Shown here one piece after another: positions 10,901 through 26,800 of a stretch of DNA of 60,376 nucleotides (position 1 is its first letter; the number at the start of each line of letters is the position of its first letter). The stretch is from a virus. The DNA is taken from the IMG/VR virus record IMGVR_UViG_3300047548_000760, positions 1 through 60,376 of that record, one strand, 5' to 3'. The translations under genes and the position numbers were made by a program. The notes beneath the pieces were generated by a model. It ran no database searches. It was not told where the DNA came from and saw nothing but the letters and a program-made list of their open reading frames with translations.

Positions 10901-13900
10901 TCCGGCGACACGATTGTCGAGACCGAGCACACGCTGCGTGCACCCGGGGCCGGCGCTGACCTGGAAAAGTTCTTTGACCAGATCGCGGGCAGCCGCGACA
11001 TCGGCCCGTACAAGGTTGTCTTCACCACGTACAGCCAGCTGCAGACCGTCAAGGGCAAGGTCACGGCGCGCATGCGCATGGTGCAGTCCCTGGCCCAGGG
11101 CGGCTACATGGTCTTCGATGAGAGCCACAACGCGGGCGGCACGCAGATCACGCAACCCCGCACCAAGAAGGACCGCGACGCGGCCAAGGCCGGCGAGACC
11201 ACGACGGGCCGCTCCGGGTTCGTGCGCAGCCTCGTGCGCGTCTCGTCGGGCAGCTTCTTCTCGTCGGCCACCTACGCCAAGCGCCCCGACGTGATGGACC
11301 TCTACAGCAGCACCAACATGCTGCTGGCGGTGGACCGGCCCGCTGACCTTGCGCCGGCCATCATGCAGGGCGGCGTGCCCATGCAGCAGATCGTGGCGAC
11401 GATGCTGGCCGAAGACGGGCAGTACATCCGCCGCGAGCGCACGTTCGCGGGCGTGACCTACGAGACCCGGCCGATGACGGTGGACCGGCAGACGGCCGAG
11501 AACATGGCGCAGTCCATGCGCATGATCCTGGCCTTCTCGCGCGGCAAGGAAGCCGCCGTCAAGGCAATGCAAAAGGAGTTCGACCGCGAGGGCGCCATGG
11601 TGGGCGTGTCTGGCGGCGAGAAGACCTCGGTGCAGGGCGCCAACTTCGGCGCGATCATGCACAACCTCATCGACCAGATGCTGCTGTCGCTCAAGGCCAA
11701 GGAGTCTGTGGACTTCGCCATCGAGCGCCTGAAAGCCGGCGAGAAGGTCGTGCTGACGGTGGCCAACACGATGGGCTCGTTCCTGTCGGACTATGCCGAG
11801 GAGTTTGGCATCCGCCCTGGCGAGCCTGTCACGCTCAGCTTTGCGGACCTGTACCAGCGCTACCTTGAGAAGCAGCGCGTGGTGAAGATCAAGCGCCCAG
11901 GCGGACCCAAGAGCGGCGTGCCGTACCGGCTGACCGACTCCGACCTGGGCAGTGGTCTGGTGGCGCAGTACAACGATGTGGCGCGGTTCATCCAGGAAGC
12001 CGGCTTCGGCTCCGCGCCCATCTCCCCGATCGACTACATGCACCAGCGGCTGCGCGAGGCCGGCTACAAGACCGACGAGATCACGGGCCGCAGTGTCACG
12101 GTGAGCTACGCGGGCAAGGCTCCGGTCCTGGCATCGCGCAACGCCAACATCAAGCAGCGCCTGACAGCGATCCGCGGCTTCAACAGTGGCGCAATCGACG
12201 TGATCATCCTCAACCAGTCGGGCGCCACGGGTCTGTCCCTGCACGCTTCGGCCAAGGTCAAGGACCAGCGCAAGCGGCGCATGATCATCGTCCAGGCCGA
12301 GAAGAACATCGACACCCACATGCAGATGCTGGGTCGCGTGCACCGCACGGGTCAGGTGATCACGCCGGACTACACGCAGGCCATGGCCGACATCCCGGCC
12401 GAGGCCCGGCCGGCGTCGGTGCTGCTGAAGAAGATGGCCAGCCTGAACGCCAACACCACCGCCAGCCGCAAGAGCGCGGTGACGGCCGAGGGCGTCGTGG
12501 ACTTCATGAACGACTACGGCGGTCAGGTGGCTGCCGAGTTCCTGCTGGACAACCCCGAGATCCACATGGACCTGGGCGGCCAGAAGGTGCTGGAGATCCC
12601 GGCCGAGGCCACGGAGGCCGACGAGGACCTGATCCGCAAGCTCACCGGCTACATCCCCATCCTGCCCATTGAGCAGCAGGAGGCGGTCTACCGCGACTTG
12701 GTGGACCGCTACAACGACTTGCTGGCCCGTGAGAACGCCATGGGCACCAACAAGCTCGAAGCCGCAGCGCTCGACCTGGGTGCGAAGACGGAAAAGCGCG
12801 AGCAGATCACGACCAAGCGCGACAGCCCCGTGCCGTCGCGGTTCGCCGAGCCGGCTTTCATGGAGCAGGTCGACGTGGCGCGCACGGTCAAGCCGCTGAC
12901 CAAGGCCGAGGTCCAAGAGGCCGTCAGCCAGTCGCTGGGCGGCAAGACCCCGCAGATGGTGGCCAACGAGCTCAACAGTTCCCTGGCGCAGCGCATGGAG
13001 CCGTTCCTCGTTGACCTGCAAAAGCGCCGCATGCAGCAGGGCGCCGACACGGACGGCGAGAAGCGCGCCCAGTTGGCCCAGGAGGTCGAGCGGCACCGGA
13101 TGCAGCAGTCGATCATCTCGGACCTGCTGTTTCGCTTCCAGATCGGGCAGGAGGTTTCGCTGCTGGACCAGCACCAGTCGGTGACCTACGGCGTCATCAC
13201 ATCGGTGTCGGCAGCCGGCAAGACCAAGAGCCCAGCCGCCGCTTCGGGCTGGAAGTTCACGATCGCCCTGGCCAACGGCGAGGCCCGCTCCATCACGCTG
13301 AGCGCCTCGCAGATCGGCAAGCAGTTCACCCTGCGCGCCGAGCGCGGGCCGGTGATCACGCTCAACCCCAGCACGAACGAGCCGGCCTCGATGAGGATCC
13401 CCGACCTGTTCGACGCCTACGGCGGCTCGGGCAACGTGCGGCGCGAGAAGCGCTGGATGGTCACGGGCAACCTGCTAGCGGGCTTTGCCTCGTACCCCGG
13501 TCAGATCCTCACGTACACCAAGGACGACGGATCAACCGGGCAAGGCGTGCTGATGCGTCGGGGCTTCGACTTTGAAAAGCGCAGGGGCGAGGCCAAGGCC
13601 TCGTTCCCTTCCGCAACCGTCATTCGCCTGTTCTTCACCGAGGCCGGCCGCAACGCCACGATCGGCACGCCCGATGGCGTGCTGCGCGTGAAGTGGTACG
13701 GCGGGAACTACCCGGCTGAGTTCGAGGTCGCCTCTTCCAAGCGCGAGGGCGGCAGGTTCTACCTGGATCGCGGCCTGACGGACGCCCTTGGGCGCGACTT
13801 CACCAAGGTCGGGCAGGTCATGCGCGCTGCGGTGACCGAAGACGACATGATGCGCGCCCTGGTCTACCTGATGACCGAGCGCGACGACGTAAAGCTCGAA

Positions 13901-16900
13901 GCGCAGACGAACAAGGACGTGGCCCGGCGCCTGCTGGGCCTGCCCGATGTGACGGAGTCGCAGGGCAAGCGCACGGGCGACAGACCGGCGTTCTCCCGCA
14001 CGGACGCGGCTACCAAGGGCATGACGGTTGCCGGCGTGCAGCGCGTCTCGGGCGGCGCGATGGCGGCCTGGGCAAACAAGCCCCGGCTGGTCGTGGCGCG
14101 CAACATCCAGGAGCCCAGCGTGCCGCAGGCGCTGCGCGACGAAGACGCACGCCAGCGCAAGGGTGGCGCAACGGGCGATGTGCGCGGCACCTTCTATGAG
14201 GGCGTCATCTACCTGTTCAGCGACCACCTGGGCAGCGACAAGGATGTGATCGAGACCCTGTTCCACGAGGGCCTGGGTCACTACGGCCTGCGGGGCGTGT
14301 TCGGAGATGCACTCAACGCGGTGCTGGACATGATCAACCTCGCGCGGCCGGACCTGATGCGCCCGAAGGCTGCCGAGTACGGAGCGGACCTGCGCAAGCC
14401 TGCGCAGCGCCGCAAGGTGGCCGAGGAGGTGCTGGCCAGCATGGCGCAGTCCGAGCCCTCGCTTGGGTTCGTGCGCCGGGCGGTGGCCGCGGTTCGCACG
14501 TGGCTGCGCACCAACGTGCCCGGCTTCGAGAAGTTGCGCCTGACCGACGACGAGATCATCCGCAGCTTCATCTTGCCGGCGCGCCAGTTTGTGATGCAAG
14601 GGCAGGCCCAGGCTGTTGCCAGCGCAGCAGGCGCCCAGGCGGCGTTTGCTCGCGCTTCCCAAGGCGGGCCCCGTCAGACTCCCGAGCAGCGCGCCGAGAC
14701 CATCCTGGCCACGCCCGTGACCCAGGCGCGGCCGCTTGATCGGGTGTTTCGCACTGTCTCGCGCATGACCGGCTTGGAGGCCGTGACCAACCGCATCTAC
14801 GGCCGGGCTGCCTACCTGCTGGATCGATTCACTCCTGAGACCGTCAAGGCCGGCATCGTCTCCGACTACGGCGTGCCCGAGGCGGTGATCGACATGCGCG
14901 TCATGCTGCAGGGCCGGCAGCGCCAGCAGTTGCGCCGCTCCGGCGAACTGGTGGACAAGCTGGCCAGCCTGACCCGCGAGGAGTCCCGGATTGCCTACGA
15001 GTGGATGAACATGGACGGCTCGGACCCCCGCGCCTACCTGTCCATGATGCAGGGCCTACCCGAGGAGTCCGTGCGGGTGCTGCAGGACGTGCAGCGCATG
15101 ATCGACGACCTGTCCAAGGAGGCGGTGCGCCTGGGCCAGCTGGACCCCAGGTCCTACGAGCGCTTCAAGTTCGCCTACCTGCGCCGGACATACGAGCGCT
15201 ACCTCGAAGAGTTGACCCCGCAGCAGCGGGCCAGCCAGCAGCGCGCCACCCGCATCCTGGGTGACCAGTACCGCATGCGCGGCTTGGTCGAGCCCGTGGA
15301 GATGGCCAAGATTAAGTCCGGGGACCCGGAGTGGTGGGGCCGCAAGGAGCGCGAGGGCAAGGGCGACACCGGTCTGGTGAACCAGAAGTTCATCAAGCTG
15401 GAGCGCCTGAAGCCCACGGGCGCCGGCACGATCCCGCTGCCGGGCATGACCGGCCGGCCCGATGGCAAGGTGCTTGAGGTGGTCTACTGGCCCGCCGATC
15501 GCGCCGTGCCTGCGAAGTACAGCGAGTGGCGCCAGAACGAGGTCTTTGAGGTCCGCGATGTGAAGGGCGGCAAGGTCATCCTGTGGCGCGACTTCACAAA
15601 GGACGAGCGCGAGGCCATGGGCGAGGTTGATGAGGCCCGCTTTGCGATCGCCCGCACGCTGCAGCGCATGGTCCACGATGTCGAGGTCGGGCGCTACCTG
15701 GAGGGCCTGTCCCAGAAGTACGCCAAGGCCGACGGCGACGAGATCGACGGCACCCTGGTGGAAGCCAGCGAGCACTGGCACCGGGCGTTCAAGCCGGGCG
15801 ACTGGGTGAAGGTGCCAGAGACCAAGATCACGGGCACGAGCGTGGCCAAGTACGGCAAGCTCGCCGGCAAGTACCTGCCGGGCCCGATCTGGAACGACGT
15901 GCGCTTTGCTGTGAACGGACCGTTCCAGCCGTTCGGCGAGGTCTACGGCAAGGTACTGTCGGCCTGGAAGGTGGCCAAGACGGCGCTGACACCGGCCGTG
16001 CACATGAACAACGTCATGGCCAACCTCGTGATGGCCGACTGGCACGAGGTGGGCGCGGCGCACGTGGGCAAGGCCCTGCGGATCATCCTGGCGGCCAACC
16101 AGCGCGACGGCAAGGGCGCACTTGGCAGCCTGGGCAACGTCGCTGCAAGCGGCGGCATCGCCGACCGCGAGGCGGCGCTGCAGATCATGAACCGCTACCG
16201 GGATGCGGGCGGCGACATCGGGTCATGGGCGACCCAGGAGATCGCCCGCGAGCAGATGGCCCCGCTGCTGGACGCTGTGCTGGAGGAGTTGGGGCGCAAC
16301 GGGGACGCCTCGGTGCAGGGGCAGATCGGCGTCATGGCGGCGCTGCAGCACTTGCTGCACCTGAAGCTGCCCGAGGCCTGGAGCGCGTTCAAGGCCAGCA
16401 AGCCGGCCACCGTCGCCGGCCGCGAGGCTCAGTCCATGATTGACCTGTATCAGGCCGAGGATGACGTGTTCCGGCTGGCGGCGTGGCTGGCAGCCAAGGA
16501 GCGCGGCCTGGATGACCTGCGCGCCGGCCGGGAGGCCCGCAAGTCCTTCCTGGACTACGACATCAACGCGCCCTGGATCGACGCGATGCGGCGCAGCGCG
16601 TGGCCGTTCATCTCGTTCACCTACCGCGCCGTGCCCATGCTCTTCGAGATCGCCGGCAAGCGACCGCACAAGCTGATGAAGCTGGCGGTGCTGGTTGGCG
16701 CCCTGAACATGCTGGGCGTGGCCATGTCCGGTGACGACGAGGACGAGGACGAGCGCCGTCGCCGCATGCTGCCCGAGGAAAAGGCCGGCAAGGTCTGGGG
16801 CATCGTGCCCAAGTTGATCCGCATGCCCTGGGACGACAAGAACGGCTCTCCGGTGTACCTGGACATCCGGCGCTTCGTCCCGGTGGGTGACATCGTGGAC

Positions 16901-17422
16901 ACCGGCTCCACTCAGGCGGCGCTGCCCGTGCCGCCCGGACTGATGCCCGGGGGCCCGCTGGTCATTCTGGGCGAGGTGCTGATGAACAAGAGCGCGTTCA
17001 CCGGCAAGCCGATCGTGCTGGGAACCGACACACCGACCGAAGTGGCCGGCAAGGTGTTCAGCCACCTCTACAAGGGATTCGTGCCGAACCTGCCGGGCTT
17101 GCCCGGCACTTACGCGACCGACGCCCTGGTCAACGCCGGCAGCGGCAAGACGGACGCCTTTGGGCGCCAGCAGTCGGTGGCCCAGGCGGTGGCCTCGTCA
17201 GTCGGGGTCAAGTTGGGCAGCTACCCCGAGGATGTGCTGCGGCGCAACACCATGGCGCGCGCGAGCGCCCAGGAGCGGGAGATCGAGACGGTGATGCGGG
17301 GGCTGCAGCGGCAGCGGCAGATGAATGCGATCAGCCAGGAAGAGTTCGACCGGAAGATCGAAGTGCAGCGGGAAAAGCTGCGCAAGCTGTCGCAGGAAAC
17401 GCGAGAAAAAGTGGCGCAGTAA
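4979..17422 (+). CDS. Giant polyvalent protein: ddrB-ParB, N6-adenine methylase, Strawberry-notch-like helicase, HExxH, LPD38-like
   Basis: A 4147-codon ORF from TTG (4132 from ATG 4994; no good ribosome-binding site for either). Domains in order: hydrophobic Gly-rich N-terminus (about 150-230); ddrB-type ParB-like domain (480-650); a conserved segment starting VFTEDAAAAARARL (1217-1295); methyltransferase with GEPTAGNT (about 1464) and NPPF (1525); superfamily 2 helicase with GDQTGIGKGR (1898), DESH (2047) and QMLGRVHRTGQ (2449); HEGLGH zincin motif (3096); then a long region resembling LPD38 with a hydrophobic segment near 3900. Such polyvalent proteins, like P1 DarB, are packaged and ejected with phage DNA and protect it or remodel it in the cell. 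Domains are joined by Gly/Pro/Gln linkers, three of which overlap small genes in another frame. It follows the terminase small subunit gene, after a copy of the 15-bp element. Confidence 0.9.
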   Translation: MPSLPMPLVFPDQAAQAATRPASDAAQAAAQGVTPQAQQPAQPAGRLVFPRELSLRDAGSIAADMGTALWEGAKNTGRMLGATGNTVGGNLSGVDELARSQAAAEAQSPDAKALLMQEIQRRKAANPDAGWLDVIKNVGASFIGQPEGAAQFVAEQTPNTAVSLGAGIAGAKGGAALGSLIMPGVGTAVGGVAGFLGGMFLGNASLEIGGKAMEKSQDQARTGGSLTADDASAAIREGSVKGGVITAVDAATLGAGRGVARLFNKTAIEAGARAEARVLADAGVDVTSRAAIERSLAADPVLRATAQEAGKVAAQSASKIGSRAATGGTLLGMETVGEGAGEYLGELAATGKADKYDAVMEAMAGLSQSVPETAWSMRQSQGNDLSARGIERVGGDLPPAAPAPAPSEPPAPPAPPTPPAAPNNTIIPPADVPPLDPTALPPDLDAQNRDRTRSASVLQMQKIAQNPDYLRAGPSRSPDTGAPMVFAQGDDTSLFPSFTRGREDVAVMSDGQRVPFQYAVVDASLLQPSNFADGTPNPLFNNETPGLVKALSNARSAGLRAAWAQGTASGYAADLEADTKQHGISVEAIRSTSNPVLVRLYSQSSNTPGMAARSQGQGLGMSPGELARQDAPLIDGGLLAVWQGGDVADARNLDFVRGFVGRLQGTGQDLAGMMTQAGTLSPDGRKRIQAALAQSAYGDSDLIAEMFDSTDTDIKAIGEALKLAAPEWADMRDSARSGAIDPAADITPALLDAVAMVRRARQQRQSLSDLARQTDITTGQTPDPMVLGALRLLYGGEYLTRPMGRDRMADFLREYTRLAKGITADAGLFGDAPAPLDVLTALTKETATDGQQQQPGAAAGTTQQPGAGLQQPNGGSNPGGDAGPGGAAAVRPGDNAGGAQPAAGGAGPLANTDTAGQAAAQGVTAPGNQPMVGDAFDPTGWSEQENKINKKTGQPMLGSGRVRFKRADERGFEQSVVVQNGVIVTSNSVSPLVELTNSSLDFDAPVRGRVHVLNSDVQGLVLTFVPEDSSGATATKMSPRAVQQYKDGVPIEKITETEFSDAGGIKPDGSRTPHTTVGALVKGPAPGAPVSAPATTQGASDVRQEGQGRRQEEALTPEAGAPGQQPGAPAAAQTPAPAPAPRTPEAMGDALRRRIQGDVQAKRDGEAAYQSGADRIPPESMTAPSQRRMWLEGYDTAAPASSPAPAPAPTPAGGANTVFTEDAAAAARARLKAKLGRLNSGIDPETMLDGITLAGYHIERGARTFAAYARAMVDDLGDAVKPYLVSWYLAVRNDPRASDFKADMDKAGAVEDADLDALLANKGKAPEAASAVQPSLNTPAGRMALAQVIADRFIGGDGFKTIIEARKFIAEATGEKIEAGTQAAKLADEAIEMAVVMAGREIVQAARAQGRSDSVIYDRLVNLYDLQPTLGVRTSTSVREQAYSTPVPLAFLASRRAQVGPDSTVGEPTAGNTMLLIEVDPERAAVNELNADRAANARALGFTVTSHDAARHQLAPEKSLDRVVANPPFGAVKGDDGQTVVFPVASNYGTREIDHAISFKALDAMKDDGSAVLILGGVDASNEEAIREGYRSKSKREFYFRLYGLYNVVDHFTVDGGLYSKQGAGYPVDVVVIRGRGKATRAMPAAELPKRYDNWEALKKEKLDGSTEATATGVVPTGPATGTGRSDGAQGQQPGAGGLVDGAGRQGAGTGGQGAGPGRGGDVGGTVAGTPGAEGQPGRRGGAGAAQPGTADGPDAGRDGAAQAPVSGQGPRGVRGNAPGDGGNRPGDVGGTGGSQGERVESGLSDRRGLEQETETQVEYAPQSGAASVGTLVPRAMRESIAASLKRVADSVGNIDEFVAEKLNFDPETLRANFSAEQVDALALAIMSAEAGKGFIIGDQTGIGKGRVVAAMLRYAMINERIPVFVTEKPNLYADMIRDLDDIGMGDELRLQSNKPLILATNSSEPIPYVLQRKSGDTIVETEHTLRAPGAGADLEKFFDQIAGSRDIGPYKVVFTTYSQLQTVKGKVTARMRMVQSLAQGGYMVFDESHNAGGTQITQPRTKKDRDAAKAGETTTGRSGFVRSLVRVSSGSFFSSATYAKRPDVMDLYSSTNMLLAVDRPADLAPAIMQGGVPMQQIVATMLAEDGQYIRRERTFAGVTYETRPMTVDRQTAENMAQSMRMILAFSRGKEAAVKAMQKEFDREGAMVGVSGGEKTSVQGANFGAIMHNLIDQMLLSLKAKESVDFAIERLKAGEKVVLTVANTMGSFLSDYAEEFGIRPGEPVTLSFADLYQRYLEKQRVVKIKRPGGPKSGVPYRLTDSDLGSGLVAQYNDVARFIQEAGFGSAPISPIDYMHQRLREAGYKTDEITGRSVTVSYAGKAPVLASRNANIKQRLTAIRGFNSGAIDVIILNQSGATGLSLHASAKVKDQRKRRMIIVQAEKNIDTHMQMLGRVHRTGQVITPDYTQAMADIPAEARPASVLLKKMASLNANTTASRKSAVTAEGVVDFMNDYGGQVAAEFLLDNPEIHMDLGGQKVLEIPAEATEADEDLIRKLTGYIPILPIEQQEAVYRDLVDRYNDLLARENAMGTNKLEAAALDLGAKTEKREQITTKRDSPVPSRFAEPAFMEQVDVARTVKPLTKAEVQEAVSQSLGGKTPQMVANELNSSLAQRMEPFLVDLQKRRMQQGADTDGEKRAQLAQEVERHRMQQSIISDLLFRFQIGQEVSLLDQHQSVTYGVITSVSAAGKTKSPAAASGWKFTIALANGEARSITLSASQIGKQFTLRAERGPVITLNPSTNEPASMRIPDLFDAYGGSGNVRREKRWMVTGNLLAGFASYPGQILTYTKDDGSTGQGVLMRRGFDFEKRRGEAKASFPSATVIRLFFTEAGRNATIGTPDGVLRVKWYGGNYPAEFEVASSKREGGRFYLDRGLTDALGRDFTKVGQVMRAAVTEDDMMRALVYLMTERDDVKLEAQTNKDVARRLLGLPDVTESQGKRTGDRPAFSRTDAATKGMTVAGVQRVSGGAMAAWANKPRLVVARNIQEPSVPQALRDEDARQRKGGATGDVRGTFYEGVIYLFSDHLGSDKDVIETLFHEGLGHYGLRGVFGDALNAVLDMINLARPDLMRPKAAEYGADLRKPAQRRKVAEEVLASMAQSEPSLGFVRRAVAAVRTWLRTNVPGFEKLRLTDDEIIRSFILPARQFVMQGQAQAVASAAGAQAAFARASQGGPRQTPEQRAETILATPVTQARPLDRVFRTVSRMTGLEAVTNRIYGRAAYLLDRFTPETVKAGIVSDYGVPEAVIDMRVMLQGRQRQQLRRSGELVDKLASLTREESRIAYEWMNMDGSDPRAYLSMMQGLPEESVRVLQDVQRMIDDLSKEAVRLGQLDPRSYERFKFAYLRRTYERYLEELTPQQRASQQRATRILGDQYRMRGLVEPVEMAKIKSGDPEWWGRKEREGKGDTGLVNQKFIKLERLKPTGAGTIPLPGMTGRPDGKVLEVVYWPADRAVPAKYSEWRQNEVFEVRDVKGGKVILWRDFTKDEREAMGEVDEARFAIARTLQRMVHDVEVGRYLEGLSQKYAKADGDEIDGTLVEASEHWHRAFKPGDWVKVPETKITGTSVAKYGKLAGKYLPGPIWNDVRFAVNGPFQPFGEVYGKVLSAWKVAKTALTPAVHMNNVMANLVMADWHEVGAAHVGKALRIILAANQRDGKGALGSLGNVAASGGIADREAALQIMNRYRDAGGDIGSWATQEIAREQMAPLLDAVLEELGRNGDASVQGQIGVMAALQHLLHLKLPEAWSAFKASKPATVAGREAQSMIDLYQAEDDVFRLAAWLAAKERGLDDLRAGREARKSFLDYDINAPWIDAMRRSAWPFISFTYRAVPMLFEIAGKRPHKLMKLAVLVGALNMLGVAMSGDDEDEDERRRRMLPEEKAGKVWGIVPKLIRMPWDDKNGSPVYLDIRRFVPVGDIVDTGSTQAALPVPPGLMPGGPLVILGEVLMNKSAFTGKPIVLGTDTPTEVAGKVFSHLYKGFVPNLPGLPGTYATDALVNAGSGKTDAFGRQQSVAQAVASSVGVKLGSYPEDVLRRNTMARASAQEREIETVMRGLQRQRQMNAISQEEFDRKIEVQREKLRKLSQETREKVAQ
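7524..7748 (+). CDS. Nested small gene A inside the polyvalent gene
   Basis: A 74-residue ORF in the +1 frame relative to the giant gene. AAGGAG at 7508-7513 lies 10 bases before the ATG. The product has credible composition (PMAAAILGAMLVREGQRQYD, HNLLRVAQDHWPTPIPQD). In the same bases the giant frame is a low-complexity Q/P/G/A linker (residues 849-923), as expected when a GC-rich gene is read out of frame. It is either a real overlapping gene or the relic of a once separate intergenic gene. The function is unknown. Confidence 0.6.
   Translation: MDSSNNPAQQPAQPSSPARASSNPMAAAILGAMLVREGQRQYDPATTQAGHNLLRVAQDHWPTPIPQDKRLPKG
8280..8324 (+). CDS. Nested mini-ORF B inside the polyvalent gene (14 residues)
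   Basis: ATG at 8280 with AAGGAG at 8268-8273, spacing 6 bases, encodes MYDKKGKGGGKKKR, a very basic glycine-lysine peptide, in the same +1 frame as nested genes A and C. The overlapped giant-frame residues (about 1101-1115) lie in a linker. A DNA- or RNA-binding micro-peptide is possible. Short length limits confidence; the ribosome-binding site and shared frame support it. Confidence 0.45.
   Translation: MYDKKGKGGGKKKR
9969..10391 (+). CDS. Nested gene C inside the polyvalent gene (140 residues)
   Basis: A 140-residue ORF in the +1 frame, with AAGGAG at 9956-9961, 7 bases before the ATG. The product (MDQPKQPQLAWCPPGLPPEL ... LEPGDWWMALADRVQELVDK) looks like a globular helical protein with normal Trp, Asp and Glu content. 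The giant frame over the same bases (residues 1664-1804) is almost only Gly, Ala, Pro, Gln, Arg and Asp, a typical out-of-frame reading. It lies exactly between the methylase and helicase domains. No family is recognised. Confidence 0.7.
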   Translation: MDQPKQPQLAWCPPGLPPELAAVMVPKDSSLEPGDWWMALADRVQELVDKEPDPDEAATWAARSLGRPGLRDSQDAGEVLVQRNLELRTALTLDVTAQPKHPFPAKALVESAATRRAMEETDLETWVELAAARVSASSLD

Positions 17423-17498: not shown

Positions 17499-17546
17499 TG
17501 GCTCCCCGACCTGGGCTCGAACCAGGGACCTACGGATTAACAGTCC
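17499..17546 (-). other. attP core: 3' half of tRNA-Asn (GUU)
   Basis: Read on the minus strand this is the anticodon arm to 3' CCA of a bacterial tRNA-Asn: GGACTGTTAATCC (anticodon GTT), then the T arm with GGTTCGAGCC and an acceptor end GGGGAGCCA. The 5' half is absent, so it is not a functional tRNA gene. Temperate phages carry such 3' ends so that integration restores the host tRNA gene. It lies 98 bases from the integrase stop and is bracketed by four 11-bp repeats. Confidence 0.85.
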
Positions 17547-17599
17547 TCGGTGGTTAGCCATATAAATCAAGCACTTAGCTCAAAATCCGGTCCGCAACC

Positions 17600-17644: not shown

Positions 17645-18733
17645 TCACTGTTGCGGACCGGCTTTCCGGGCCGTTGGAGTGACCCTGTCGCCCAGGCGCA
17701 CGTAGTGCTCGGTCATGCGTATGTTCTTGTGGCCAAGCTGGCGCTGTGCGGCCTGTAGCCCGTCGGCGTCGGCCTTGTCGGTGCCGGCCTTGGCGCGCAG
17801 GTCGCGGAACTGGAAGGCTTCGATGGCGGTGGCCATCTCCTCATCGCCGGCCTTCCTGGCGATCTTGGCCGCCTTCTCTCTGGCGTCATCGAAGGCGTTG
17901 TCCAGGCCGTAGGCGGTCAGCCTAGAACCCTGCCGATTCACCACCAGGGCGAGGTCGAGCACGCGGTTTTGGCGCTTGCGCTCGGCGATCTCGGCCAGCT
18001 TCATGCCGAGGTCGTTGGGCCCGGTTGAACCTTCGAGCTCGATGCGCAGTTTCTTGGCGGTTTTGCCCTGACCGACTCGCAGGACGCCGTCGCGCACGTG
18101 GGTGGCGGACATCTTCAGCACGTCAGCCGGTCGCTGGCCGGTCAGGTAGGCGAGGTCGATCGCGTCCTTCAGCGGCTGACTGGCAGCGGCGTAGACGGCC
18201 TGCAGCACCTCGTCCTCGACGTAGATGTCCCGGCCCGTCTCCTTGAAGCCCTTGATGCCCGCGCAGGGGTTGGGCAAGGCGGTGACGCCCCAATCACGGG
18301 CCATGTTCCAGACGTGCGACAGCAAGGCCTTCTCGCGGTTGGCGCGGACCTTGGCCGTCTCGCCCCGCCACGTCAGGTACTGGCGCACGTGCTGCGGCTC
18401 GATGGCCTCGAAGGCGATGGGCGGGTCGTTGAAGAACTCCAGGAGCTTGGCCATCTCCTTGATGTTGTCGGACTGCGTGCGCGGGGCCTTGGTGGGAACC
18501 ACCCGCTGCAGGTACAGATCAGCCACGTCCTTGAAGGTGGTGACCGGCGCTGCCGAATCGTCCTTGGTCAGTTCGGCCCACTTCTTGATGGCAATCACGT
18601 AGTCGGGCCCGAGTGGGATCTCGCGGCGCGGCTTGCCCCCGGTGTCGAGGTAGTAGTACGTCTTCCCGCTCGGCTTGGTGCGCGCCCGCATGCCATCAGG
18701 CAAGTTTAAGTTCTTCGTGCGGCGGCGTCCCAT
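17645..18733 (-). CDS. int: Tyrosine integrase
   Basis: A 362-residue tyrosine recombinase from the ATG at 18733 (MGRRRTKNLN); a start 10 codons earlier is possible. It has an N-terminal arm-binding region (KTYYYLDTGG), a core-binding domain, and a catalytic domain with Arg in LTGQRPADVL, Lys in GQGKTAKKL, the box II segment FQFRDLRAKAGT (Arg kept; the usual first His is replaced by Arg), His in LGHKNIRM and the nucleophile Tyr in TEHYVR. It joins attP and the host tRNA-Asn gene. It lies at the distal end of the leftward late region but is separated from the cargo genes by about 100 bases, so it probably has its own promoter. No recombination directionality factor is certain; the DUF4224 gene at 50776 is a candidate. 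Confidence 0.92.
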   Translation of the reverse strand: MGRRRTKNLNLPDGMRARTKPSGKTYYYLDTGGKPRREIPLGPDYVIAIKKWAELTKDDSAAPVTTFKDVADLYLQRVVPTKAPRTQSDNIKEMAKLLEFFNDPPIAFEAIEPQHVRQYLTWRGETAKVRANREKALLSHVWNMARDWGVTALPNPCAGIKGFKETGRDIYVEDEVLQAVYAAASQPLKDAIDLAYLTGQRPADVLKMSATHVRDGVLRVGQGKTAKKLRIELEGSTGPNDLGMKLAEIAERKRQNRVLDLALVVNRQGSRLTAYGLDNAFDDAREKAAKIARKAGDEEMATAIEAFQFRDLRAKAGTDKADADGLQAAQRQLGHKNIRMTEHYVRLGDRVTPTARKAGPQQ

Positions 18734-18836
18734 GGCGTGCTTTGTAGCAAAAGTAGGCGCCAACCATACCCGGCGCGCGCAAGGCGCGTCGATGGGACGA
18801 TGATGGGATTAGGCTGGCTGCTGCCGGCCTGGGGGG

Positions 18837-19247
18837 TCAAGCAGCTGGCGCTTCAGTTGGCACGGGCGGGATGTACCCTGGCACAGTCTCAGGGCCGCCG
18901 CCCATCACAGGCGCTGGAGGGAGTTGCGGCGGCTCCCAGGCCTTGACCGTGAACTGAGGCACCTCGCCCGGGTCGTCGTCAGCCACGCCTTGGTACAGGG
19001 GCCCACTGTCGTAGTCGGCCAGCAGCTTGTAGAAGGTCGCCCGCGGGTCCTCCACCATGCGCCAGAACGGCACCACCATGCGCTCGATGGACAGAGGCTG
19101 GCCGGCGTTTTGTCGCGCCTCAGCGTTGGGGTAGGTCGCCACGCACAGCACCACTTCTTGCATGTTGGAGTGGATCTCGATGCGGTCGATGCGGTGGTAC
19201 TCGGCGTTGATGCCGAACTGAGTCGGGCGGTCTTTGATGATGGCCAT
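18837..19247 (-). CDS. Hypothetical protein downstream of desaturase
   Basis: A 136-residue product starting at ATG 19247 (MAIIKDRPTQFGINAEYHRI), with AAAGGACC just upstream and only 10 bases after the desaturase stop, so co-transcribed. The N-terminal beta-rich domain (DRIEIHSNMQEVVLCVATYP) is followed by a Pro-rich tail (PPQLPPAPVMGGGPETVPGY). Similar small proteins follow tail fibres in some phages; the function is unknown. Confidence 0.6.
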   Translation of the reverse strand: MAIIKDRPTQFGINAEYHRIDRIEIHSNMQEVVLCVATYPNAEARQNAGQPLSIERMVVPFWRMVEDPRATFYKLLADYDSGPLYQGVADDDPGEVPQFTVKAWEPPQLPPAPVMGGGPETVPGYIPPVPTEAPAA

Positions 19248-19257
19248 GATGGTCCTT

Positions 19258-19986
19258 TCAGTTGGTGCGGATGAGGCGAATAAAGGCAGCACCTGGGTCC
19301 AGGTGCCACCAGCGGGTACGGAAGTCGGCTCGCCCAGGGTGGTCGTGGTGCGTCTTGTGCAGCCATTCCCCGCAGGCAGGAAAGATGAACTCAAGCCAAG
19401 GCAGGTCTCTCGGTCCGCCGCCCCGGTGGCTTGTGATCTGGTGAATGGCGCCGATCAGGTGGGTACTGCCCAGCGGCATCAGGTAGGCAAAAAGGAACAA
19501 GGTCGGCGACACAAGCAACAGCGCCGCGCACGAAGCGCCCCAGAGCGGCAGTCCGTAGCGGTGAACAAACGCCAAGGTTGGGTCCTTGGCCAGCGCACGC
19601 AGACGCCAACGCACCATCGGCACGTCTCGATACCGCTTGTTGTACAGGTAACGCCAGTTGGCGAAGTGCGGATCGCGCTCGGTGTCTGAATGAGCGTGAT
19701 GAGTGTTGTGCGCGGCCGCCCACCCCTGCGGACTGCCGTTGAGCAGCAGCACGCTGTAGTACGCCATGAAGCGGTGCCAGAAGGCCGAGGTCTCGAAGGC
19801 GCCGTGGGAGAAGTATCTGTGCAGCCCGACTGAAAGCATCAGCGAGCCCAGGACGTGAAACACCCCCCAAGCGGCAAGCCACCACGCCGAGACCGCGCCG
19901 GTTGTCACCAGCCACAGTCCAATGACGACGCCGGCCATCCCGAGGTAGTAGCCCATCGGGATCATCCACAGGGGTTGTCTAAGCAC
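19258..19986 (-). CDS. Membrane-bound fatty acid (acyl-CoA/acyl-lipid) desaturase
   Basis: A 242-residue integral membrane protein with the three histidine boxes of the delta-9-type desaturase family: HRYFSH (about residue 58), HNTHHAHSD (near 95) and HKTHHDHP (near 214), plus hydrophobic segments near the N-terminus, around 72-84 and around 145-170. It inserts a double bond into acyl chains using a di-iron centre and needs host electron carriers. The GTG at 19986 was chosen because GGAGGT precedes it by 4 bases; a TTG 12 bases upstream is weaker. It overlaps the previous gene by 8 bases and sits in the distal late operon, so it would be made late in infection, or in lysogens if a local promoter exists. 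It is shorter than many cellular desaturases but keeps all eight box histidines. Confidence 0.88.
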   Translation of the reverse strand: MLRQPLWMIPMGYYLGMAGVVIGLWLVTTGAVSAWWLAAWGVFHVLGSLMLSVGLHRYFSHGAFETSAFWHRFMAYYSVLLLNGSPQGWAAAHNTHHAHSDTERDPHFANWRYLYNKRYRDVPMVRWRLRALAKDPTLAFVHRYGLPLWGASCAALLLVSPTLFLFAYLMPLGSTHLIGAIHQITSHRGGGPRDLPWLEFIFPACGEWLHKTHHDHPGRADFRTRWWHLDPGAAFIRLIRTN

Positions 19987-20506
19987 GGTCACCTCCAATC
20001 ACAAGCGCGTATGTCCCAGGCGCGGCTACCAACTCGTCGCCACCCACTCGAAACGTGTCACCCGGCTCATGACGCCCCAAACTGCCCGAGCACACCAGGA
20101 TGCGGTCGCCCTCTTGCCCAAGGAACACACCACCCACCGGGTATCTCAGCGGCGTGAGGTCAGGCAGTGCGCCGCGGTTGGCATGCCAGTTGAAGCACCA
20201 GAACTCCAGCTCCTCGACGGCTGTGATTTTGGTTGTGCCTTCGGGGTGATCGGGGCGCTCGGCGGTGAACAGGCCGGGCACACGGTCGTCGTATTGGCCC
20301 CCGAAATTGTTGGTCACAGCGCCGCGTCCGCGCACGTACAGAGCCCGATTGGGCGCCTCGCTGCGCTCGATGGAGCGCGAAGACACAACGACCAAGGCAC
20401 CACCTGCGGGCAGGATGTGGCGGTGGACTTTCCAGCCAAAGACTTCGTGCGCCGTCACGCTTGCCGCCGTTTCCTGGCCTCTCCAATCTCGTCTTGAGGC
20501 GCTCAC
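19979..20506 (-). CDS. Hypothetical protein, possibly cupin-like
   Basis: A 175-residue product from a GTG with GGAG about 10 bases upstream. It is beta-rich throughout with regular Gly turns and two His-containing strands (HRHILPAGGALVVVSS, FWCFNWHANRG), which suggests a cupin-like or jelly-roll fold, but no clear metal motif is seen. It lies between the fibre-assembly-like gene and the desaturase, with short or overlapping junctions. It could be a receptor-binding accessory or an enzyme acting with the desaturase; neither is supported directly. Confidence 0.55.
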   Translation of the reverse strand: MSASRRDWRGQETAASVTAHEVFGWKVHRHILPAGGALVVVSSRSIERSEAPNRALYVRGRGAVTNNFGGQYDDRVPGLFTAERPDHPEGTTKITAVEELEFWCFNWHANRGALPDLTPLRYPVGGVFLGQEGDRILVCSGSLGRHEPGDTFRVGGDELVAAPGTYALVIGGDRA

Positions 20507-20509
20507 CTG

Positions 20510-20899
20510 TCACTCCGCAGGGTAGATGATCACGGAGCCCGGCGCCACCGAGTTGTCCTTCGGGTAGGCGTCTTTGACCGCTTTCAGGCGGCTGTAGAAG
20601 GGCTCGACACGGGGCATATGGAAACCATCCATGGCGTGCCAGAGCATGTCCATTTGCTCTCGGACGCTTGGGTATACGTCGGCGCGCGCCTTGCGGTAGT
20701 CCATGTCGACGGGCGGCGGCGGCCTGCCGCCAGCTATGACCTGACCTGTTGCAGGGTCCACGGCGTCAGCCTCGACGTCGGCCTGAGCCTCGACTACGAA
20801 CTCGCTCGGTCCTGCGGCCTGAAATTCAAGGACGTCATCCGTGCAGACGCCAGCCCGCAGGATCTCACCGGCAGCGTTGTAGACAACAAAATGCTTCAT
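20510..20899 (-). CDS. Putative tail fibre assembly-like protein
   Basis: A 129-residue product whose ATG overlaps the stop of the giant fibre gene (ATGA). The segment DYRKARADVYPSVREQMDML, with the following WHAMDG, is characteristic of small proteins next to phage fibre genes, some annotated as fibre assembly or XkdW-like. Translational coupling to the fibre supports a chaperone or accessory role in fibre folding; this is inferred. Confidence 0.6.
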   Translation of the reverse strand: MKHFVVYNAAGEILRAGVCTDDVLEFQAAGPSEFVVEAQADVEADAVDPATGQVIAGGRPPPPVDMDYRKARADVYPSVREQMDMLWHAMDGFHMPRVEPFYSRLKAVKDAYPKDNSVAPGSVIIYPAE

Positions 20900-23800
20900 C
20901 GCTTCATGACCAGTACGCTTAAGCGCATGGTTCCCGTGTAGTAGCTTCTCGTCACGGTGATCGTGTGGTTTCCGGCGCTTGGCGCCACAACAATCACGCC
21001 GGTCGGGGTTCCGTTATCGGTAAGTCCTGTAACGATGGGGCCATATACATCAGCAGTACCCCCGCCGAACTTGCCGCCAGAGCTTCCGGCAGTAAAAGTT
21101 GGTGGGCCCAGGTAATACTGAATGAACAGCGCGGACGCTGATGCGGGAACACTAACTGTCACACTTACCGTGTCGGTGGTGGAGGTTGCAACGGAACTAG
21201 ACGACGCCGCATTACCGACGATCTGGTCAGTGTTGACGATGGCAGCGGAAAGCGATCCACTAAAGGACGCCGAGCCGTTGACGATACTGAAGCCCGGCGC
21301 GTAGACGTTTCCGGTGTTGTCGACCTGGAAGTAGCGGTTGTTGTTGGCGTTGCCCAGCAGTAGGCCGTTCGGTCCCAGGTGGAAGCCGTAGTTGTTGACC
21401 GCCGGCCACGCATACCCCGTGAACGCGCCTCCGTTGATCGAGCCCCTGATGTTGAGGGCGCCCCCAGCGGAGTCGAACTCCATGGACTGGCTGCCGCCGC
21501 TGTTGACGCGGAAGAACGAAACCCCGTCGTTGCGCTTGAGGAAGATGTCGTTGAAGTTGCTACCAGACAAGGACAGGCCGTAGTGGCCCGAGCTTGGGCC
21601 GACGTCGTGGCCGAGCTGCACGCCACCAGCGGTGATCTTGAGATTGGCCCCGTCAATCTTTGTGGCCGTGATCGAGCCCGCGCCGATGCGGTCCGCACTG
21701 ATCGTGCCGGCCGTGATCTTGCTGGCGTTGAGGTCGTTGATCTTGGCGTTGGTGATCTGGGCATCACCGATCTTGGCTGTCGTGATCGCGGCGTCAGCGA
21801 TCTTGGCGCTGTCGATGGCCGCGTTGCCGATCATCGCGTTGACGATGGCCCCGTTCTGGATGGCCGCAGTACCCACCGCGATGGCGTTGGCCGCGATCTT
21901 GTTGGCCGTGATGGCGCCGTCGACGATCAGGTCGGCAGAGGCCACCTCTTGGCAGCGAATGGCTTGGGCGGCTTGTCGCGCAGTTCCTGAGCCACTGGAG
22001 TACCGGAACCAGACCATGATCGCCGCTTCTTTGGCGCTTGCGGGAATCGGCCTCGCAGTGCCAGCGCCGAACTGCCCGCCGTAGCGCGCCCAGTCGCCGG
22101 GGGTAGGCAGGCCACCATATGTGTACCCGGCGTATGTGCCGCCCCATCCTGTGCTGGCCCCCGTCAACTCCGTTCCATTCCCATCCCACATGCGAACGGT
22201 CACGTACATATTGCGGTTGTTGCCCGCATCCACAAAGAGCTGCGCAGTGGCGCTGTATGTGCGAGAAGAGTTGATTGGGAACCGCCGGCTGTTGACCTGC
22301 ACATCAGTGCTGGAGCCGGCTGGTAAGTCAAAGAAGTACCGACCTTCAGCGGAGCCCGCAGCGCTGGACCCCTGCACTACGGTTCCGCCCGTGATGGTCC
22401 ACGCGCTCAGGTCCATGCAGGCGGGGTCGTCGTTGAGCGCGGTTCCCTGGCCCGTTACCAGCAACTTGTCAGTGGTGATAGCGCCCGCAGAAATCTGGGC
22501 CGCGCTCACGGCCCCCGCCGCGATCTTGCCCGCGGTGACGGCGTTGGCCGACAGCTCGTTGGCGGTTACCGCGCCCGCAGCGAGCTTGGCAGTCGTGACA
22601 GCGCCAGCGTCAATCTTTGCCGCTGTGACCGCATTGGCTGCGATTTTGGAAGCCAGGATGGAGCCATCAACGATGAGGTTGGCGTCTGCCTTCAGCATCA
22701 GGCGAATGCCTGTTGCCAACTGCGTGCCTGTCCCCGAGAAGTTCGACAGCAGGCCGACCCTGATATACCTTGCGCCGGCCGGGATGGTGGCGCTCTCGTT
22801 AGGCCCGAAACTGATACGGTATTCAGTCCAAGCGGCCGGCAGGGTGCCGTTGACAAGGCCGAAATAGTGGTACGTCCCTTGGCTGGGCCATCCGCTGGCG
22901 CCGCCGCTGATGATGCCGTCGTTCGCGTCGTAAAACGCGACCGTCAGGTAAGTAGTGCTGGAGCCAGTCTCCTGGCGGGTCCAAATGCGGTACTCGTAGT
23001 TTCTGGACGCATCAAGGGGCACACGCTCCGACACGAACGTCATGCCTGCGGTTGCGCAGCGTAGAACGGTGGCGCCAACTGGGCTTGTCGCGTCAGCAAT
23101 GATTGAAAGCCCGGTGCCGATCCAGGCAGTCACATCTTGCGTGTTGGGGTCAGCGTTGAGAGCCATGCCCCGGCCCGTGACCAGGAGCTTCTCAGTCGTG
23201 ATCGCGCCCGCCGCGATCTCGCTCGCGCTGATGGCTCCCGCCGCGATCTGGGCCGCAGTGATGGTGTCGGCAGCGATGTTGCTGGCCGAGATGGTGTTTG
23301 CCGCGATCTTCTCGCCCGTGATGGTGGCGGCGGCGATCTCCGTGGCGGTGATGGTCCCTGCCGCGATCTTGGCAGCCGTAACCGCATTGGCAGCCAGCTT
23401 GTTGGTTGCTATGGCGCCGTCAACGATGAGATCGGCGGTGGCGGCCTGATCCAAGATGACGGCGGAAGCGCTCACGCTCCCACTAAAGGTGTTGTTCGCC
23501 TCGTTGTAGATGAGGAAGCGCACCGAGACGGCATTGGCGGGAACTTGTCCCTGCGCAGTCAGATCCTGCGTACCGGAGCCCGCGGTAGACGTGAGCGTAA
23601 TGTCGGCAAGATCTGCGTTGAGCCGGTTGTAGAAACGGGCGGCAACATAGAACGACTGGTTGCTGTTGTTGCGCATCCGGGCGCGCAGCCGCACCCAGGT
23701 GCCAATGGAGGGGACTGCAACTGACCCGCTCCAGATGTGCTTGCGCAACGCGCCCGGGTTGTTTGTGGGGTGTCCACTCCAGAGCGAGGCGTGCTTGCCA

Positions 23801-26800
23801 ACGCTCATGGTTGTATCGCTCTCGAAATACCAGCCGTTCGTGTCAAACTGGGTTGCCGTCCACCACGCCTCGTCCGAGAAGTACGGGTCCGGGCAGATCG
23901 ACGCCGGCACCACGAGGAGCTTGGAGGTGGTGATGGCGCCCGCTGACACCTTGGCGGCCGTCACGGCTCCAGCGTCGAGCTTGTTGGTTGAGATGGCGCC
24001 GTCGACAATGAGAGCGCCAGCGTTTCGGCGGCGAACCTGGATGTTCCTGAAGTGCCAACTTCCAGTGGCCCCAGCAGTCCCAGCGATCTGGACCGCGACC
24101 ATCGCGTACCGCTTGTTAGCCGGGACCAGCGCGGTGCCGGTTACCGTCTGCCATGAGTTAGTTGTCCGTGCGGCGTAGGCGGTCGTGATCCAGACGGAGT
24201 TGGTTCCACTCACATCGTCCGCAAACCGCAGCATTACTGCCGCATCGGCAGTTGGAGGGTTGTCTCCGGCCTGGGCTGGGTAGAAGGCGCCAGAAAGGTA
24301 GAACTCATCGCCCGGAGTGACATCGAACCATGGGCCAATGTAGGCATCGCGGTTGATTGTGCGCAGGCTCTTGATCGCCGCAGACAGGCCGCCGATGCCG
24401 GTGTTTGGGCCCGTGACCACGCCAGCAGTCCAGCCGTCGACCCCAGAGTCTCCGCTTGGGTTGGGGCAGAGGTTCTCGAAGTCGCCTACCGCAATCTTGG
24501 AGGACGTGATTGATCCGGCCGCGATTTTGTCGGCCGTCACCGCCCCGGCAAAGATGTTCCCCGCCTTGACCTCACCCGCTCCGATCTTGTCGGTCGTAAT
24601 GGCGCCGTTGGCGATGAGGGTGGTGTTCGAGGTGCGGAACAAGCGCACCTCGTCGGCGTAGGCGGACCCGGCCGTGAGGATGGATTCCACCTCTACGTCG
24701 ACGAAGGCGACTCCGGCGCCTACCGTGAATGAGACAGATGACTTGGTGTAGGCCGTGGTGGCAGCAGGGACGTAGGCCCCGACGGCGAACTGCACTTCGG
24801 TGGCAAGCGTGGCGTTGTAGCCGATGCATCGCACACGTGTACCGGTTCCGGTTGAGCTTGCGGCGTGCTTGATGTACGCCTCAGCGTAGAAGGTCTCGCC
24901 GGGCTCCACGGCGACCTTCTGCAAGTTCCTGAGCGCAGTGCCAGCGGCAATGTTGGTGTTCCTTGCCACCCAGGTGCCGCTCTTGGCATTGGTGGCGTCG
25001 GAAACGATTGCCCAACCAGACTCCTTGGACCAGCCAGCATCCCCTTCCTCGAAGTTCCAGTTGCGGGCCTGGACCGTGAAGTCGCCAACGGCGATCTTCG
25101 AGGCGGTAACCGCTCCAGCCTGAATCTTGGCCGCTGTGACTGCATCGGCGCCGATTTTTAGAGCGGTGATAGCTCCATCGACGATTAGCTCACCGCTGGC
25201 AGCGCGGCGCATTACCGGACCGCCGAAGCGCACTTCGGTGGCACTATCGTTGCTCTTGTAAAACCGGATGCGACCGAACCGCTTGTTGGCTGGTGCGAGT
25301 ACAGTTCTTGTGCTGGCCGTGACCGTCGACGCAGAAACCGAGGTGAAGTCGGTCTCGGTTAGGTTTGTCCCGGCTTCATCATCGGCCCAATGCATGTTCC
25401 AGGTGGCGTTTCCAGTGCCGGCCGCCACGCGGGCCTGAATGCTCACGTAGTAGCTGAATCCGGGCTCGACAGGCACCCACTTTGAGGTCACGAAGCCGGC
25501 GTAGGCGCCAGCCGCTCCCGTGATGATCAGGTAGCGGGTGGAGCGGAACCCACTGTCAGTCGCAGCCGATACTCCCCAGGTCGACGTTCCAAGGCTGCCC
25601 CATGCGCCAGCATCGGTCATGCTGGCGTCAGAGATCAGGTTGGAGAAGTCCCCCACACTGATCTTGGAGGCTAGAACGGCTCCGGCTTGGATCTTGTCCG
25701 CGGTGACCGCGTCAGTGCTGATCTTCAGTGCCGTGATGGCCCCGTCAACGATCATCTCCGCGTTAGCTGCCCGACGGGCAATGATCCTGGTGATGTACCA
25801 AGCCCCTACAGGGGAGGCGTTGACGTTGCTGCGGATGTAAAGGCGGATGTACGCCACCGGCAGACCAGAGACGGTCGCCGGCACAGTGACCGTGCCGCTG
25901 AAGCGTGTCCAAGTTGTGTAGCTGGTCGCCGTAAGGGTGCCGATCTGGATGCCAAGGTTGGTGCCCAGCGTGGAGTCGGCGTACCGCATCTGCGCCGCCA
26001 AAGTGCCGTTTGTGTTGGCTTCAGCGGCGGCCGTGAACTCGAAGTAGAAGGTCTCGCCCGGGGCGGCTGCAATCCAGGTGGTTGGCAGGAGGTCTGTGAC
26101 CGTTGTGGGGACGGGCCTCGTGAAGACGTATTCCGTGGGCGCGTCAGCGGGAACGCCAGCCGTTGAGCGCAAGACCACAGACCCCGAGGCCCCAAGCTGC
26201 AAGCCATCGGTCGAACCCCCAGCGAAGTCCGGGTTGCGCCAGATGTTGGTCATGTCCGCCACTGCGATCTTGGACGCAATGACGGCGTTGGCGGCGATCT
26301 TGTCAGCGGTGACAGCGCTGGCGCGAATCTTTGCGGCGGTCAGCGTGTTGTCCACGATGACGTTGCCGCCGAAGACCACGGTGAGCGCAGTCCATGTTCC
26401 GGCGCTGGAGCGGATGCGGGTCTCGGAGTAGGGGGTGGCCGAGTTGTGGAGCGTGACCGTGTCACCCGCGATCGGAGATACCCCTCCGGCGTCCGCAATG
26501 GCCGTTGCAGCCTCCGAATCGGACCAAGTGGACCCAGAGATCGCCCGGGCCGTTGTGATGGCTCCACGGGCCCCGTAGAGCCTCCAGTAGGTGTTTGAGG
26601 TCGTCGGATAGGCTGGCGGAGTGACCGAAACGCTGGAGATGTGCGCCAGGATGCAGACCCATCGGAACCCGGAGTTGGTCACGATGTCCCCAACCCCGTA
26701 GGCCACAGACGCAGAAGACCAGTCGCCGACCAACACGTTGCGGGTTGCGCCGGCCTCGGCCGTCGTGTCGCCCAGGCGGATCAGGTTGGCGTAAGCCGCA

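Follow-up and report, generated by a model that had tools for sequence, protein, structure and literature searches.

Why should a phage carry a gene for a desaturase-like membrane enzyme behind its tail-fibre genes, and what might the product do there? The gene lies at positions 19,258–19,986 (minus strand) of the window, by which we mean the whole stretch of 60,376 nucleotides analysed here, an IMG/VR virus record with genes for a terminase, a portal, an internal virion protein, tail proteins and an endolysin. Two related contigs, G008 and G001, match both window ends close together (about 0.5–0.8 kb apart), so the window probably represents the circularly permuted, nearly complete genome of a temperate phage. 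The original prediction that the gene is phage-encoded is borne out by these two relatives and by the recurrence of the gene in dozens of viral contigs. Among isolates, the best terminase matches are to Microcystis, Rhizobium, Paracoccus and Sulfitobacter phages (56–61%); Pseudomonas phages are the commonest integrase matches (35 of 85 records), the best match being 45%. The opposite strand holds a single 4147-aa open frame at 4,979–17,422, the last 1147 residues of which are ~86% identical in two relatives, and which looks like a giant polyvalent protein. A recoded TGA considered for the terminase of G033 was rejected on the finding that the stops precede the start codon.

Next but one to the desaturase is a tyrosine integrase (17,645–18,763, minus strand), assigned by sequence-family matches. 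Beside the integrase, ~1.7 kb from the desaturase, lies a possible attP core (17,499–17,545, minus strand; 17,499–17,552 in a wider delimitation), corresponding to the 3′ portion of a tRNA gene that we take to be tRNA-Asn; ARAGORN lists no full tRNA there. The core differs by one base in G008, and the exact 18-base core was not found in G001, whose DNA aligns there at 85%. The gene between integrase and desaturase encodes a 136-aa protein (18,837–19,247, minus strand) with a weak match to phrog_5084. It is an optional neighbour, found behind the desaturase at 74–76% in three other contigs (L022, L023 and L026) and unmatched in both closest relatives.

Sequence, predicted fold and selection

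The desaturase-like membrane di-iron protein comprises 242 amino acids from a GTG start at 19,986, with an in-frame TTG at 19,998. The three histidine boxes that had been called intact from the sequence are so: HRYFSH (residues 56–61; 19,804–19,821), HNTHH (residues 93–97; 19,696–19,710) and HKTHH (residues 210–214; 19,345–19,359), all on the minus strand. A further motif, HQITSH (residues 182–187; 19,426–19,443, minus strand), contains a ninth ligand-type histidine, His187, along with Gln183 and an extra His182. His182 had been considered as the ninth ligand and was dropped for His187 on the cellular alignment. All nine ligand-type histidines (56, 61, 93, 96, 97, 187, 210, 213 and 214), which by analogy to SCD1 we take to be the iron ligands, occur in every member of an alignment of 91 viral and cellular proteins.

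The Pfam family FA_desaturase (PF00487) matches the window protein with an E-value of 1.4e-5, at 25.4 and 26.2 bits, under the gathering score of 29.7. Among 28 viral sequences (24 encoded together with the partner gene described below, hereafter ‘paired’, and four others), 20 match this family at E ≤ 0.01, the best at 5.3e-16. With the NCBIfam model of the DesA family desaturase (NF049918), the window protein reaches 39.2 bits against a curated cut-off of 400. Human SCD1 matches the window protein with an E-value of 1.4e-7 and a profile of the 28 viral desaturases, window included, with 1.6e-21 over nearly the full length.

The AlphaFold2 model of the protein (pLDDT 93.9, pTM 0.90) features four helices long enough to span a membrane. 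Among solved structures, it comes closest to those of SCD1 (Z 20.2–20.5, rmsd 2.8, 230 residues aligned); the next entry other than SCD1 reaches Z 10.9, AlkB 7.8 and Scs7p 4.9. By its predicted SCD-type fold and its nine histidines, the protein belongs to the membrane di-iron desaturase superfamily. What it shares with SCD1 (PDB 4zyo, 4ymk and 6wf2) is the fold over 230 residues, the ligand-type histidines and the box pattern. In contrast to SCD1, it comes from a bacterial virus, is only ~20% identical, is shorter (242 aa against 298–321 residues in the solved chains), carries glutamine for the asparagine that precedes the fourth-motif histidine, and is changed at positions that we take to contact CoA.

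The dN/dS ratio of the desaturase is 0.09 between the window and an 88%-identical relative (L002). Of four further desaturase pairs, three gave 0.19, 0.02 and 0.04, and one was saturated. Ratios of 0.12 and 0.08 were obtained for the partner and 0.10 for the integrase. The desaturase gene is real, intact and under purifying selection.

A viral clade with altered residues near the iron site

The 24 paired desaturases group as one clade (100/100) in a 91-sequence tree, separate from 58 cellular and nine other viral desaturases. The 24 are representatives of the contigs known at that time (L148–L160 and L178–L182 are left out of both tree and residue counts, as is the second, truncated gene of L048). 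The cellular set is not random: it was fetched by a box-1 pattern, which spares positions 94 and 182–187, and consists of 55 sequences chosen from the best 80 loci, less two dropped for length and with five plasmid genes added. Long-branch warnings of the tree program concern L047, L046 and the second gene of L044, all outside the paired clade.

The cellular homologues are distant. Among the matches listed, identity is ~23–33% over most of the length and 35–45% over short stretches, and in the best 80 cellular loci it is 23–31% for matches that cover most of the query. No close cellular source was found in a pattern-limited scan of genome contigs or among the best 80 loci listed. A viral-profile search of 398 genomes of one phylum gave 59.5 bits at best, with listed open frames of 297–751 aa. 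The desaturase may have come from an unsampled cellular source. The paired-clade proteins are also short, at 237–256 aa against 279–418 aa for the comparison sequences.

Several residues around the ligands differ between the two groups. Position 183, the equivalent of an SCD1 asparagine that presumably holds a metal-bound water, is Asn in all 58 cellular sequences; in the paired clade it is Gln in 21 of 24, Thr in two and Asn in one. At the adjacent position 184, every cellular sequence (58/58) has Ser, as does a single paired-clade member (1/24), the window having Ile184. Position 94 in box 2 (HRxHH) is Arg throughout the cellular set (58/58) and in none of the paired clade (0/24; Asn94 in the window), and the extra histidine at position 182 is found in 24 of 24 paired-clade and 0 of 58 cellular sequences. 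The window desaturase is without the cellular signature NSxxH plus HRxHH.

The positions aligned to Arg155, Asp156 and Asn148 of SCD1, which we take to be CoA contacts, are likewise changed in the viral desaturases. Since the Arg155 position is Ala or Ser in 53 of the 58 cellular relatives as well, the lost contacts leave an acyl-CoA substrate undecided. Because second-sphere residues are altered, the textbook desaturase reaction cannot be assumed: the original assignment as a membrane fatty acid desaturase holds for the membrane-type desaturase fold and the full ligand set. To judge from the sequences, the replacement of Asn by Gln or Thr beside the metal site, together with the lost box-2 Arg, could support another reaction.

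Desaturases had also been called rare phage cargo. This agrees with database counts, the window protein having one match at E ≤ 1e-5 in 50,697 phage records and another family member three at E ≤ 1e-3, but phage desaturases are already known and a recognised kind in print. The sole match of the window protein, at 27% over 70%, is the FA_desaturase protein QOI69044.1 of Pelagibacter phage Mosig EXVC030M. Unlike the window protein, it falls outside the paired clade on its own very long branch, keeps the Asn, has no partner annotated alongside and sits among metabolic genes, not behind fibres. The Mosig gene (L047) adjoins annotated genes for an Asp/Arg hydroxylase (Asp_Arg_Hydrox), a nitroreductase, an aminotransferase and a dioxygenase, as if forming a small biosynthetic cluster.

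Roitman, in 2018, reportedly described lipid desaturases of cyanophages. Excerpts of other reports describe Arctic brine vFADs with histidine motifs, SCD-like models and purifying selection (PMC7300359) and an acyl-CoA desaturase in a Lake Baikal Nitrospirota virus (PMC7678222); viral desaturases are read there and elsewhere as membrane-fluidity genes (PMC7300359, PMC7678222, PMC11480375, PMC8224337, PMC8228385). The cyanophage, Arctic brine and Lake Baikal desaturases are phage-borne like ours, but, compared by description only, the excerpts speak neither of a cupin partner nor of a fibre-linked site or a second-sphere change. The paired clade may overlap with some of the published desaturases, for example those in the host-less clades A and C of the Arctic brine set (PMC7300359). 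What is new with respect to the excerpts of the viral desaturase literature searched is the pairing with a cupin-fold protein, the fibre-linked place and the altered residues.

Three contigs of large phages raise the question of phage-encoded acyl-ACP substrates. In L043 (9,126–10,922), an acyl carrier protein gene comes immediately after tandem desaturases, and in L041 such a gene (12,276–12,515) lies 1.6 kb behind the pair. L046 (5,332–11,770) carries several desaturases in the vicinity of a Rieske protein and of a weak, below-cut-off holo-ACP-synthase-like gene.

The cupin-fold partner and the fibre-linked slot

Directly upstream of the desaturase, and overlapping its start by 8 bases, is the gene of a 175-aa partner protein (19,979–20,506, minus strand). 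The window's partner has no sequence-family match in Pfam, PHROGs or NCBIfam, and 23 relatives yield one weak PHROG match. Its predicted model (pLDDT 94.1) is all-beta, a cupin-type tandem barrel whose similarity to members of the cupin superfamily is middling: Z 8.7 over 90 residues for ectoine synthase (5bxx), 8.4 for PA5104 and 8.3 for pirin over 146. The top 20 Foldseek rows are cyclic-nucleotide-binding tandem barrels at rmsd >13, which we take as reflecting the same general barrel in the model; the top five matches among viral models are uncharacterised phage proteins. The predicted fold is a cupin-type beta-barrel. A metal-binding His/Glu set like that of cupins is not conserved over the family: across 23 sequences, no His or Glu column is invariant or reaches 90%. 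All 13 partners of the window's subgroup have His30 and Glu101, and nearly all have His28 (HxH at 28–30). The invariant residues of the family are F23, G60, G78, G90, C104, N110 and P115. A known-enzyme role for the partner was considered and set aside, there being no family match and the cupin likeness existing at fold level only.

Searches of viral contigs seeded with the partner (three subsets, 20 + 13 + 8) returned 41 different contigs, and the desaturase stands directly behind the partner in all 41, with a domain start between −13 and +15 bases relative to the partner stop. Because the seeds came from desaturase loci, and 31 of the 41 had already been met through desaturase searches, the independent evidence for pairing is the remaining ten contigs, where the desaturase follows the partner in 10 of 10. 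Distances of the two proteins co-vary (Mantel r 0.82, 0 of 1000 permutations, 25 non-redundant pairs), as expected for genes inherited together. The pair is carried by 44 virus records, a count that includes near-copies and is made up of 41 records with the window among them (25 of the 41 distinct at 95%) plus L178, L179 and L182. Two contigs with a looser order are outside the 44: L193 has the partner with two desaturases, and in L201 another gene separates the partner from an Asn-type desaturase. A divergent partner in L195 is without a desaturase, and that contig ends 1.4 kb on.

Searched as queries against 50,697 phage records, two partner proteins had no match, and the pair was in none of the isolated phages searched. 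A partner profile had no match in 398 genomes of one phylum, in a search run without a positive control. For isolates with a type-I small protein, five of nine records were examined, none with the pair behind the small protein.

In the window, the pair follows a small gene (20,510–20,899, minus strand; 129 aa), which itself comes after the gene of a 2087-aa fibre-like protein (20,896–27,159, minus strand), so assigned by its repeats, its place and its similarity to the fibre genes of relatives. Other pair-bearing phages have small genes of other types in the position of the 129-aa gene. A search for the type-II upstream small gene found 32 contigs, 12 with partner and desaturase, L193 and L201 included, and 20 without a desaturase, L195 included (two of these 20 end within ~50 bases); the fibres therefore do not need the pair. 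In six of the 20 (three of them near-copies), the slot holds a short cupin-like gene, recognised by motif. The short cupin-like proteins in the slot behind fibre and small gene in L198, L199 and L203–L206 mostly show a GHxHxFDHxT-like motif, and Pfam Cupin_2 stays under its cut-off in the two tested. Pfam lent no support to a 2OG-oxygenase that had been proposed by eye for the L211 slot, nor to hydroxylase-like genes of L195. The content of the slot thus varies among phages, the pair being one occupant among others.

From the 2087-aa gene through the desaturase, neighbouring genes overlap or lie 3 bases apart. A scan of 17.4–21.2 kb, which covers a small part of the operon and one promoter type, found no sigma-70-like promoter, with 0.5 expected by chance. 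Terminator-like sites number seven against 3.0 expected, with minus-strand ones inside the desaturase and one before the integrase. The genes from fibre to desaturase are likely read as one transcript, and by gene order the desaturase would be expressed late. The original prediction had put the gene at the end of the late operon, after the fibres; it is indeed behind the fibre genes, but not at an end, since the 136-aa gene and the integrase follow on the same strand.

Compared with G008, the terminase, portal and integrase of the window are 92–95% identical, and the C-terminal stretch of the giant 4147-aa protein lies with them in the 86–95% range. Of the fibre protein, 13% of the length aligns, at 53%; the partner is 48% and the desaturase 59% identical, and the small gene has no match. 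Against G001, the values are 88% for the desaturase, 81% for the partner and 72% for the small gene, with the fibre aligned over 25% of its length; several other window genes have no match in G001 while the desaturase reaches 88%. Between close relatives, the pair thus diverges along with the fibre; the boundary of this low-identity block falls between desaturase and integrase, and the flanks of the relatives are 85–95% identical. A 759-aa gene at 43–45.3 kb also hardly matches and diverges as much as the fibre block. An exchange of a fibre–partner–desaturase block between phages would fit these comparisons; the low identity of the block may instead come from fast evolution. The pair also stands behind fibre-type genes in unrelated phages: among 43 records searched (39 with the pair), a window-type portal is strong in 4, weak in 11 and without a match in 28, many of the latter being fragments, and one 331-kb record carries a gene for a contractile sheath.

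Possible roles of the pair

We give a probability of about one half to the reading that the pair is a unit of the tail-fibre region, in which a cupin-fold partner and a membrane di-iron oxidase would change the envelope late in infection. The desaturase-like protein itself is, on the sequence data, most likely a late-made membrane di-iron oxidase that acts on envelope acyl chains and is tied to the receptor-binding module. It would be read from the late tail transcript, inserted in the inner membrane and, assisted by the partner, would oxidise (most likely desaturate) the acyl chains of envelope lipids, using O2 and host electron carriers; no electron donor gene was recognised beside it in the window. 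As infection ends, the envelope would thereby undergo a change related to the receptor recognised by the fibres, and possible benefits would be release, less re-adsorption to debris or the exclusion of competitors. More tentatively, partner and modified oxidase may constitute a hitherto undescribed two-gene phage system that moves with tail-fibre modules among unrelated phages and, as infection ends, edits the lipid part of the receptor or envelope to match the fibre specificity, an extension that we regard as doubtful.

A captured host desaturase, serving as an ordinary auxiliary metabolic or lysogenic-conversion gene that raises membrane fluidity for infection or lysogen fitness, appears unlikely to us, even though this is close to the original prediction, excerpts of the literature read viral desaturases in this way (PMC7300359, PMC7678222) and a place near a possible attP and an integrase is usual for conversion genes. 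The overlap with the partner leaves no room for a promoter of its own (an intragenic one is possible), the closest cellular homologues found are no nearer than ~23–33% over most of the length, and the paired viral sequences form one clade. Also at odds with a captured gene of this kind are its occurrence in the 331-kb contig with a contractile sheath gene and its coupling to a protein for which Pfam, PHROGs and NCBIfam offer no enzyme family.

We expect even less that the protein, rather than being a desaturase, acts as a hydroxylase (or some other di-iron oxidase) on another hydrophobic substrate, such as a lipid-linked receptor or a virion component, which the partner would bind or present. 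The exchange of Asn for Gln or Thr in 23 of 24 paired-clade members, the extra His182 and box-2 Arg loss in 24 of 24, the constant partner, and the short cupin-like proteins in the same slot of 6 of 32 related contigs would all be in line with such an activity, but the predicted fold is far nearer SCD1 (Z 20.5) than AlkB (7.8) or the hydroxylase Scs7p (4.9). That the locus is host DNA wrongly joined, the alternative named in the original prediction, or a decaying gene is extremely improbable: the pair is in no isolated phage searched, but purifying selection, flanks 85–95% identical in relatives and the 44 pair-bearing records, in keeping with a gene found in dozens of viral contigs, speak against both.

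If the favoured reading of the pair as an envelope-changing unit of the tail-fibre region is true, lipid-editing enzymes of phages would be part of the host-recognition module, beyond incidental metabolic cargo. The paired clade represents a natural alteration of the residues beside the di-iron site in a desaturase fold.
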